Shown here in pieces: positions 15,782 to 18,028 of a stretch of 34,225 nt of DNA. Position 1 is the first letter of the stretch. Each line of letters opens with the position of its first letter. Origin of the DNA: Alphaproteobacteria bacterium (GTDB lineage: Bacteria > Pseudomonadota > Alphaproteobacteria > ATCC43930 > Allostellaceae); the NCBI GenBank assembly GCA_020852355.1, contig JADZBA010000199.1, positions 1-34,225 on the forward strand. Direction: 5' to 3'. The notes beneath the pieces are model-generated. The model was given only the letters and a program-made list of their open reading frames with translations, was not told the DNA's origin and made no database searches. The translations under genes were made by a program, and so were the position numbers.

Positions 15782-15815
15782 CAAAAAAAGAGGCCCCGGT
15801 GTTGCCACCGGGGCC
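15782..15815 (-). terminator. Rho-independent terminator (minus strand)
   Basis: A perfect 10-bp stem, GGCCCCGGTG with CACCGGGGCC, closes a 4-base loop (GCAA on the minus strand, 15802-15805) and is followed on the minus strand by TC and a run of seven T. This is the clearest intrinsic terminator in the window. No protein gene on the minus strand ends just before it, which points to a non-coding transcript. Confidence 0.85.
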
Positions 15816-15891
15816 AGTTGAACAGGGAGGCTTCACGTCTGGGAGACGTAGGATCCCGAAGGACCCCATTTCGGGCGGGGAGCCCGAAATA
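15782..15891 (-). ncRNA. Candidate structured small RNA with C-rich hairpin loops and CCUCCC linker (suhB/MmgR-like)
   Basis: On the minus strand, four hairpins follow each other. The first is a 9-bp stem with loop TCCCC (15868-15890). The second is GGGTCC-TTCG-GGATCC, a UUCG tetraloop hairpin whose G-U pair forms only on the minus strand (15851-15866). The third is ACGTCT-CCC-AGACGT (15835-15849). After an unpaired linker containing GAAGCCTCCCTG comes the intrinsic terminator. Exposed C-rich, anti-Shine-Dalgarno-like loops plus a terminator are typical of alphaproteobacterial trans-acting sRNAs. The last three elements recall the suhB/MmgR (alpha-r8) family from memory. The 5' end is uncertain: a core of about 70 nt could start near 15850, and further pairing (an 8-bp hairpin at 15938-15956, and GGCTTC with GAAGCC) allows an RNA reaching about 15970. 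Confidence 0.55.
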
Positions 15892-16105
15892 TCTGGCCGA
15901 AGCGCCTCTCCCAGGAAGCCCGCCGGCCGTGTTCCGTGGTGCTGCAACGCAGCACCTGTCGATGATTAAATAGGCATGAGCTGGGAGGCACCATCGCGAA
16001 TGTCTCTTGGCGGATATGCGAAAAGCGCATGGCTCCGGCCACATAGCCGCCGGATTTACACCGCGGCGGCAAGCCGCGGAGCGGCCGCGATCGATGTTGC
16101 AGTGC

Positions 16106-17002
16106 CTAAAAGCGCGTCTCGGCTACCCGGGCCACGAGATAATCGCGGAAGACGGCAATCCGCTTGGAATGGCGCAGTTCCTCGGGATAGACGAAGTAGG
16201 CGTCGACCGGCGGTCCGGCCAGCTCGGGCAGGACGCGCTCAAGGGCCACCGACTCGCCGACCATGTAGTCCGGCAGCGCCCCGATCCCGATGCCGCTCTC
16301 GACCGCGCGCAGGATGGCGTAGACGCTGTTGACCGTGAACACGTTGGGGCGGGGGCGGCCGCTCTGGCCGGCGATCTCCAGCAGCCAGTTGACCGACGGC
16401 GTCGGCGCACGGCCGTAATCGCCGAAGACGACCATGCGGTGCTTCTCGAGGTCGGCCGTGGACTGCGGCGCCCCGTGCTCCTGGATGTACTGTCGTGACG
16501 CGTAGAGGTGCAGCGACAGTGTGACGAGATGGCGCTGCACGAGATCCGGCTGCCGCGGCGGTGACGTACGGATCGCCACGTCCGCCTCGCGCATGCCGAG
16601 GTCGAGCTCGGTCTCGTCGAGCAGCAGGCTGACCTGGATGTCGGGATAGCGGTCGATGAAGCTGCCCATGCGCGGCGTCAGCCAGGTCGAGCCGAAGGCG
16701 ACCGGCGCGGTGATCTTGAGCGGTCCCTTGGGGCGGTCCTTCGATTCGCTGAGCGCCGCCTCGGTCATCGCCAGCTTGGCGAAGACGTCGTGGGCGGTGC
16801 GGTAGAGGAGCTCGCCCTGCTCGGTCAGGATCAGCCCCCGCGCATGGCGGTGGAACAGCGGCGTCCCGAGGCTGTCCTCGAGCGCGCTGATCTGCCGGCT
16901 GACCGCCGACTGGCTGAGGTTAAGCGTCTCGCCCGCGTGCGTGAAGCTTCCCGCCTCCGCGACGGCGTGGAAGATCCGCAGCTTGTCCCAGTCCATCGCC
17001 AT
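16106..17002 (-). CDS. LysR family transcriptional regulator
   Basis: A 298-residue LysR-type regulator of normal length. The N-terminal winged helix-turn-helix is clear (LRIFHAVAEAGSFTHAGETLNLSQSAVSRQISALEDSLGTPLFHRHARGLILTEQGE, residues about 7-64). It is followed by the linker helix and a periplasmic-binding-like effector domain beginning GPLKITAPVAFGSTWLTPRM. The ATG at 17002 has only a weak ribosome site; ATG at 16996 (MDWDKL) is an alternative. It lies 54 bases downstream of trxB on the same strand, so it may be co-transcribed with thioredoxin reductase. The effector is unknown. Confidence 0.9.
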   Translation of the reverse strand: MAMDWDKLRIFHAVAEAGSFTHAGETLNLSQSAVSRQISALEDSLGTPLFHRHARGLILTEQGELLYRTAHDVFAKLAMTEAALSESKDRPKGPLKITAPVAFGSTWLTPRMGSFIDRYPDIQVSLLLDETELDLGMREADVAIRTSPPRQPDLVQRHLVTLSLHLYASRQYIQEHGAPQSTADLEKHRMVVFGDYGRAPTPSVNWLLEIAGQSGRPRPNVFTVNSVYAILRAVESGIGIGALPDYMVGESVALERVLPELAGPPVDAYFVYPEELRHSKRIAVFRDYLVARVAETRF

Positions 17003-17056: not shown

Positions 17057-18028
17057 TCAGTCCGCGGCTTGCTTCGCCGCCGCGTCTTCGGCTGCGGCGA
17101 GATAGCGCTCCGCCTCCAGCGCCGCCATGCAGCCGAGCCCGGCCGCGGTCACCGCCTGGCGGAAGATCTTGTCGCGCACGTCCCCGGCGGCGAACACGCC
17201 GGGAATGTCCGTAGCGGTCGAATCCGGCCGCGTCAGGATGTAGCCCTCGGAGTCCAGGCGAAGCTGGCCCCGGAACAGCTCGGTCACCGGCGTGTGCCCG
17301 ATGGCGACGAAGACGCCGTCGGTGTCGACGCGCGAGCGGTCGCCGGTCACGGTGTCGCGCACCGCGACGCCGGTCACCCCCGGCGGGTCGCCGCCGCCCA
17401 GGATCTCCTCGACCACGGCGTTCCACACGACCCGCGCCTTGGGGTTGCGGAACAGCCGGTCCTGCAGGATCTTCTCGGCCCGGAGGCGGTCGCGGCGATG
17501 GACGAGGATCACCTCGCTCGCATGGTTGGTGAGGTAGAGGGCCTCCTCGACGGCGGTGTTGCCGCCGCCCACCACCACCACCCGGCGATTGCGGAAGAAG
17601 AAGCCGTCGCAGGTGGCGCAGGCCGACACGCCCAGGCCGCGGTAGCGTTCCTCGCTCGGCAGGCCGAGCCAGCGCGCCTGCGCGCCGGTCGAGATGACCA
17701 GTGCGTCGGCGAGATATTCGTCGCCGCTGTCGCCGACGCAGCGGAAGGGCCGGCGCGTCAGGTCGCACGAGACGATCAGGTCGCCGAAGAGGCGGGTCCC
17801 GACATGCTCGGCCTGGCGGCGCATCTGCTCCATCAACCAGGGGCCCTGGATGACGTCGGCGAAGCCCGGATAGTTCTCCACGTCCGTGGTGATCATCAGC
17901 TGCCCGCCCGGCTGCAGCCCCTCGACCAGCATGGGCGACAGGTTGGCGCGGGCGGCGTAGATGCCGGCCGTGTAGCCGGCGGGGCCGCCGCCGATGATCA
18001 GGACCTTGCTGTGATGCCGCTGGGCCAT
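17057..18028 (-). CDS. trxB: Thioredoxin-disulfide reductase
   Basis: A 323-residue flavoprotein that transfers electrons from NADPH to thioredoxin in the cytoplasm. FAD motif: [20 protein letters not shown] (GGGPAG at 13-18). Redox-active CATC at 138-141 lies within [18 protein letters not shown] motif: [17 protein letters not shown]. Second FAD site: [30 protein letters not shown]. The ATG at 18028 begins the conserved N-terminus and follows GGAGTCGGGCGGGA. Length and all active-site residues are normal. It is followed by the LysR gene and divergent from the glycosyltransferase gene at 18080. Confidence 0.96.

Follow-up and report, generated by a model that had tools for sequence, protein, structure and literature searches.

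The question raised by this locus is what is encoded on the minus strand at 15,782 to 15,970 of the window (the whole stretch of 34,225 nt that was analysed), where a preliminary description had placed a candidate structured small RNA. Our reading, which we hold at a probability of about 0.78, is that the region encodes a trans-acting small RNA (sRNA) of about 180 nt and of the AbcR/SorX kind, which would be activated by the LysR-type regulator LsrB and would repress uptake genes through an anti-Shine-Dalgarno (anti-SD) motif.

Structured elements of the minus-strand RNA

The hairpins named in that description (ACGTCT-CCC-AGACGT, a UUCG hairpin, a 9-bp hairpin with a TCCCC loop and an 8-bp hairpin at 15938-15956) and CCTCCC were all in the sequence, as was the 10-bp terminator stem followed by seven T on the minus strand. 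The stem, GGCCCCGGTG/CACCGGGGCC with the tail TCTTTTTTT, formed a clear terminator-like site (15815-15783, minus). The elements of the RNA were as follows.

15783..15960, minus: predicted primary sRNA of about 178 nt, whose start, uncertain by a few nt, was placed by taking the LsrB box to stand at -61 as in PabcR1
15938..15956, minus: 8-bp hairpin GGTGCTGC-GTT-GCAGCACC at the predicted 5' end, seen in the sequence, with similar palindromes here in relatives
15868..15890, minus: 9-bp hairpin with the C-rich loop TCCCC, from sequence and fold, relatives having a G/C-rich hairpin in the corresponding position
15850..15867, minus: UUCG hairpin (helix 1), six pairs, all with two-sided changes, 96.8% of cells paired
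15835..15849, minus: near-invariant C-loop hairpin ACGUCU-CCC-AGACGU (helix 2), each of its six pairs showing some double changes, with 96.4% of cells paired
15821..15834, minus: single-stranded linker GAAGCCUCCCUGUU, (nearly) invariant in relatives
15830-15825, minus: CCUCCC, the predicted anti-SD seed within GAAGCCUCCCUGUU, unpaired probability 0.92-0.96 in 3' forms of 69-86 nt
15783..15815, minus: intrinsic terminator, 10-bp stem at 15815-15792 and T-run at 15789-15783, covarying in relatives (helices 3 and 4)

The minus strand folded at -98.5 kcal/mol, with z = -6.2 against shuffles and 0 of 200 shuffles as good; the fold of the plus strand was weaker (z = -3.9). In this species, the full 178-nt RNA had a long-range minimum-energy fold that masked CCUCCC, in contrast to the simple string of hairpins described earlier, and the unpaired probability of CCUCCC was accordingly 0.16 in this fold versus 0.92-0.96 in the 3' module. 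Across the full-length forms of 101 loci the median was 0.76 and the value fell below 0.4 in only 9 of the 101, so masking of CCUCCC as a general switch was rejected. In the 5' half of the window's RNA, CUUCCUGGGAGAGG (15900-15930, minus) was complementary to UCUCCCAG and GAAGCCUCCC of the module; an arm resembling it was seen in locus L004 and diverged ones in L003 and L005. In this species the arm could mask the seed until processing.

Conservation and covariation

The part at 15866-15812 was matched by blastn in many genomes of the order and class. The loci had a common pattern, with a UUCG-type hairpin of variable sequence, then a near-invariant UACGUCUCCCAGACGUGAAGCCUCCCUGUUCAACU, then a terminator of variable sequence; the 3' part made of the UUCG hairpin, the ACGUCU-CCC-AGACGU hairpin, the GAAGCCUCCCUGUU linker and the terminator thus recurred across Alphaproteobacteria. 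MAFFT alone misaligned the stems, and a structure-guided covariance model (R1), built from 16 loci with the window excluded, was used in its place. R1 matched the window with 79.4 bits (E 4e-23) and was present in 119 of 241 sampled genomes of the class.

Changes on both sides were found at 20 of 20 pairs among 98 distinct sequences. The covariance analysis of homologous regions proposed at the outset gave 336 double-change cells, compared with 70 expected from shuffles and at most 80 for slid structures. Cells were paired at 95.6% across the R1 alignment (98 distinct rows), a value that leans towards the structure because the alignment was fitted to it, although the gap to both controls was still large. 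Many G-U pairs stand on the minus strand only, for example 31 G-U at column pair 12-49. With the fold, the covariation and these G-U pairs all pointing the same way, comparison argues strongly for a structured RNA on the minus strand, as had been claimed; the comparative evidence stood out from chance much more than the folding energy did. A second copy of the RNA in the window's own genome was considered and rejected, the candidate being just a 32-nt match in apparent coding DNA.

Linkage to an LsrB/VtlR gene

Two genes on the same strand precede the RNA.

17057..18028, minus: trxB (thioredoxin-disulfide reductase), which neighbours lysR upstream in the conserved block, from the open reading frame list; upstream on the same strand in most relatives
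16106..17002, minus: lysR, predicted LsrB/VtlR orthologue of 298 aa with no cysteine, 53% identical over its full length to the S. meliloti protein between trxB and AbcR

Nearly every blastn locus had this LysR ahead of the RNA and in the same orientation, with 57-100% identity across the aligned part. Of the 211 loci that had this LysR and enough downstream sequence, 143 had the core no more than 1,300 nt away from lysR, versus 0 on the reverse strand and 2 in shuffles; because some loci had been fetched via the RNA itself, a test at the level of genomes is fairer than this count. There was one LysR match per genome in 121 of the 241 class genomes (E<=1e-90). LysR and RNA were both present in 94 of the 241 genomes and both absent from 95, giving an odds ratio of 13 and a p of 2e-19 that overstates independence because the genomes are related. 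In 76 of 90 genomes having both, lysR was immediately followed by the best R1 match in the same orientation, mostly 120-300 nt away, and in seven more genomes that match lay 1.7-5.6 kb downstream, also on the same strand. Comparison of genomes therefore indicates that RNA and regulator gene are linked.

Sinorhizobium meliloti had the order lrp, trxB, lysR, two ar15 (AbcR) genes and arsR. The order was the same in Rhizobium leguminosarum, where NCBI names the protein VtlR. AbcR1/2 of S. meliloti have been located between lsrB and SMc01226 (PMC3712013), and the AbcR1 region has been described earlier as highly syntenic among alphaproteobacteria (PMC8844928). Since the order trxB-lysR-RNA equals trxB-lsrB-AbcR1/2 in S. 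meliloti, the window's LysR is, by sequence and position, identified as the LsrB/VtlR orthologue. LsrB of S. meliloti is reported to act as an oxidation sensor through cysteines. The window's LysR has none, so redox control of the S. meliloti type would not apply and the signal must differ.

Some arrangements departed from the common one. In Tistrella mobilis pTM3 (L332, 11719-11811), L067 (6442-6519) and L140 (4279-4366), the RNA followed lysR on the same strand at a distance of 2.8-5 kb, as though other genes had come to lie between the two by insertion. A plasmid lsrB orthologue of Azospirillum brasilense (p2, L329) had no adjoining trxB and no R1 match downstream; another A. brasilense assembly (L160) had lysR with the RNA.

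A conserved promoter-like region

Two elements were recognised between lysR and the RNA.

16016..16030, minus: 15-bp palindrome ATGC-N7-GCAT, a predicted LsrB/VtlR box, conserved in place across loci and present in the S. meliloti abcR1 promoter
15968..15973, minus: predicted -10 element CTATTT; CTATnT-like words peak 46-49 nt past the palindrome's GCAT (84 loci)

The exact ATGC-N7-GCAT was found between lysR and RNA in 81 of 123 loci (66%) versus 0.4% of shuffles; when at most one mismatch was allowed, it was found in 109 of the 123 versus about 10% of shuffles. One such palindrome in 34 kb is not beyond chance, so its conserved place is what counts. The aligned flank in the loci read GCAT-rgC-TG, and the published LsrB consensus is GCAT-N3-TG-N3-T (PMC8844928). 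The window's box was an exact palindrome but agreed with this consensus at 5 of 7 positions; many relatives had the full consensus. S. meliloti had ATGCGCAAACGGCAT-GGC-TG-TCA-T, whose second GCAT begins 61 nt ahead of ar15. The LsrB motif of abcR1 is at -61 to -49, LsrB binds and activates PabcR1, and the alphaproteobacterial -10 element is CTATAT (PMC8844928). No good -35 element was seen in the window's promoter region.

The position of the box and the spacing of the -10 element predict a start at about 15,958-15,961, just before the 15956-15938 hairpin, and an RNA of about 178 nt, in keeping with the longer 5' part suspected earlier. The place of both elements is supported by comparison across loci, and we infer that minus-strand transcription of the RNA begins at a promoter of its own, a short way past the LsrB/VtlR gene, and that LsrB/VtlR activates it through the ATGC-N7-GCAT box.

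Comparison with named RNA families

At the gathering threshold, no Rfam family was found on the window, and none on 20 core-positive related loci. The best sub-threshold match of the window was suhB/mmgR (RF00519), aligned over its full length (positions 1-77 of 77); with 25.8 bits against a cut-off of 41 (E 0.005), membership was rejected. The suhB/MmgR type suggested in the preliminary description was thus right as to architecture, with the C-loop hairpin, CCUCCCU linker and terminator in common, and wrong as to membership; the window's RNA differs in its extra UUCG and 5' hairpins and in the sequence of the first hairpin. The broader claim of a regulatory sRNA of the C-loop, CCUCCC-linker and terminator type gained support from the covariation, the wide range, the promoter-like region and the LsrB/VtlR synteny.

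The ar15/AbcR family (RF02345), which belongs to the same Rfam clan as suhB, gave no match on the window at gathering (cut-off 40 bits) and none in the window's own genome even at E<=0.1. Above cut-off, ar15 was found in 0 of 241 and 1 of 389 genomes in samples of the class, and R1 scored AbcR at about 5 bits or less. The likeness to AbcR1/AbcR2 (alpha-r15; Rhizobiaceae, Brucella) lies in the trxB-lsrB/vtlR-sRNA neighbourhood, in the palindrome whose second GCAT stands about 61 nt before AbcR1, in the intrinsic terminator and in anti-SD motifs in a hairpin loop and linker. The linker is CCUCCCUGUU in the window but UUCCCCUC in AbcR, and the window's RNA has a UUCG hairpin instead of the AbcR layout. 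LsrB activates AbcR1, and AbcR1/2 repress transport mRNAs via anti-SD motifs (PMC8844928).

Membership of SorX (RF02784) was also rejected (21.5 bits for the window against a cut-off of 46.6). The CCUCCCUGUU linker between hairpin and terminator is common to the window and to SorX of Rhodobacter sphaeroides in this sub-threshold alignment. SorX was found above cut-off downstream of an LsrB orthologue in L073, Paracoccus denitrificans, Pseudorhodobacter turbinis and the metagenome-assembled genome of L200. This last locus scored 48.4 bits as SorX and 78.6 bits by R1, and because both models match it, it bridges the window's RNA family and SorX. No paper treating SorX and LsrB together was found in the literature search. 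In R. sphaeroides, SorX derives from the ompR-1 mRNA and not from a site beside a LysR gene, unlike the window's RNA; RNase E shortens SorX from 116 to 75 nt, and SorX depends on Hfq and blocks potA, which encodes part of a polyamine transporter (PMC9438474, PMC6238624).

NfeR1 of S. meliloti (alpha-r14, the 'cuckoo' RNA) is activated by LsrB and pairs through anti-SD motifs with transporter mRNAs (PMC10746234), two features that the window's RNA is proposed to have as well. NfeR1/ar14 is defined by three unpaired CCUCCUCCC motifs; the window's 178-nt RNA has one CCUCCC, and membership was rejected.

Judged by these comparisons, the window's RNA has closer named relatives than suhB, namely SorX by the sequence bridge and AbcR1 by locus and promoter, and it is best read as the equivalent of AbcR1 at this locus and a diverged relative of SorX. 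We lean slightly towards a wider view, that LsrB/VtlR and an adjacent anti-SD sRNA formed one ancestral alphaproteobacterial pair. AbcR, SorX and the window's RNA would then be lineage versions of one gene that kept its place and promoter box while the RNA body was remodelled, and Rhodobacter SorX would be a displaced descendant.

Proposed action and target sites

The active part would be the ultra-conserved 3' module, with its C-loop hairpin and free CCUCCC linker capped by the terminator; this module is perhaps released by RNase E, as for SorX, and may use Hfq. CCUCCC would pair with GGGAGG ribosome-binding sites, above all those of periplasmic substrate-binding proteins, and pairing there would block translation of uptake genes.

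Target sites were counted as AACAGGGAGG-N2-10-ATG, AACAGGGAGG being the complement of CCUCCCUGUU, in 20 model-positive genomes. There were 59 occurrences, two of which were the RNA's own antisense, compared with 31 for the permuted ACAAGGGAGG and 13 for the displaced GGAGGGACAA in the same genomes. The full 10-nt complement was thus about twofold over the best control (57 versus 31, p 0.007). In the window's genus there was no excess of the linker complement over the reversed motif (15 versus 14).

Among genes of at least 150 aa behind the sites, substrate-binding proteins made up 9 of 19 for AACAGGGAGG, 10 of 23 for ACAAGGGAGG (three genes of this set being classed from sequence without Pfam) and 1 of 10 for GGAGGGACAA (one of these ten from the window's own genome). 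Substrate-binding proteins made up 5 of 12 such genes in the window's genus, one of the five being assigned as the orthologue of a scanned protein, and 2 of 3 in the window's own genome, both SBP_bac_5. Since the shares were equal for the complement and the permuted-prefix control (9/19 and 10/23), the enrichment belongs to GGGAGG sites generally and is weak evidence. It suggests a concentration of GGGAGG sites on uptake genes, the kind of gene that AbcR and NfeR1 target. The test is confounded, since the same pattern could arise if abundant proteins simply have strong ribosome-binding sites.

Alternative explanations

Alternatively, the RNA might have no promoter of its own and come from the 3' untranslated region of lysR, arising chiefly when transcription reads through and RNase E cuts the transcript; it would still be a regulatory sRNA in that case. 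The gap that follows lysR contained no terminator ahead of the RNA, and lysR transcripts are therefore expected to stop at the RNA's terminator, which probably serves lysR as well. The relative SorX originates in a 3'UTR and is trimmed by RNase E to 75 nt (PMC9438474, PMC6238624), and the conserved module here is of SorX-like size (69-86 nt). However, a palindrome and -10 element at fixed spacing are kept between lysR and RNA as in the proven abcR1 promoter, and the RNA was 1.7-5.6 kb from lysR or unlinked in several genomes, which makes this origin rather unlikely. The same separate, conserved promoter-like region argues against the earlier proviso that the hairpins might belong only to the 3' end of the LysR mRNA. 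We consider it very improbable that the region, as terminator and structural 3' end, only protects or closes the lysR mRNA and does nothing in trans: the RNA is usually close behind lysR and ends in a strong terminator, but the unpaired GAAGCCUCCCUGUU and the hairpin sequence were far more conserved than the terminator sequence, beyond what structure alone would require, and unlinked and tandem copies occur.

A sponge or ribosome-directed RNA, in which CCUCCC titrates a C-rich-binding protein or ribosomes with no chosen mRNAs, would suit the several short C-rich loops that accompany the linker in this RNA and, to a greater extent, in some relatives. Conservation reaches well beyond CCUCCC (GAAG..UGUU), though, and the closest characterised relatives act via mRNA pairing (PMC8844928, PMC9438474), so we find this hard to credit. 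Coincidental GC-rich hairpins in an ordinary intergenic region deserve almost no weight; GC-rich DNA folds easily, and the plus strand too reached z = -3.9, but conservation and synteny argue against coincidence and the covariation already refutes it. An LsrB-activated, trans-acting anti-SD sRNA is thus the preferred reading.

Significance

The RNA was present in about half of the sampled alphaproteobacterial genomes, with no Rfam family recognising the window or the 20 related loci tested, and its core sequence was absent from the open-access papers searched. One locus and one regulator would link AbcR (nutrient uptake, symbiosis, virulence) and SorX (oxidative stress), which have been studied separately. 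A candidate regulator and target class are supplied for many species that have had no sRNA work, and the age of the LsrB-sRNA circuit becomes testable.

Variants in other genomes

Two or three tandem copies of the RNA were found downstream of lysR in L051, L076, L083, L099, L161, L163 and L222, an arrangement like that of the tandem AbcR1/AbcR2 of rhizobia. Genome G258 had six matches. Strong R1 matches with no close LsrB orthologue were found in the small genomes G047, G055, G124, G139, G155, G175, G180, G258 and G268, where the RNA seems to persist without its usual LsrB neighbour. Extra C-rich loop hairpins lay between lysR and the module in L073, L075, L080, L099, L114 and L117; their loops were CUCCUCCC, CUCUCCC and CCCCCC, giving RNAs with several anti-SD loops.
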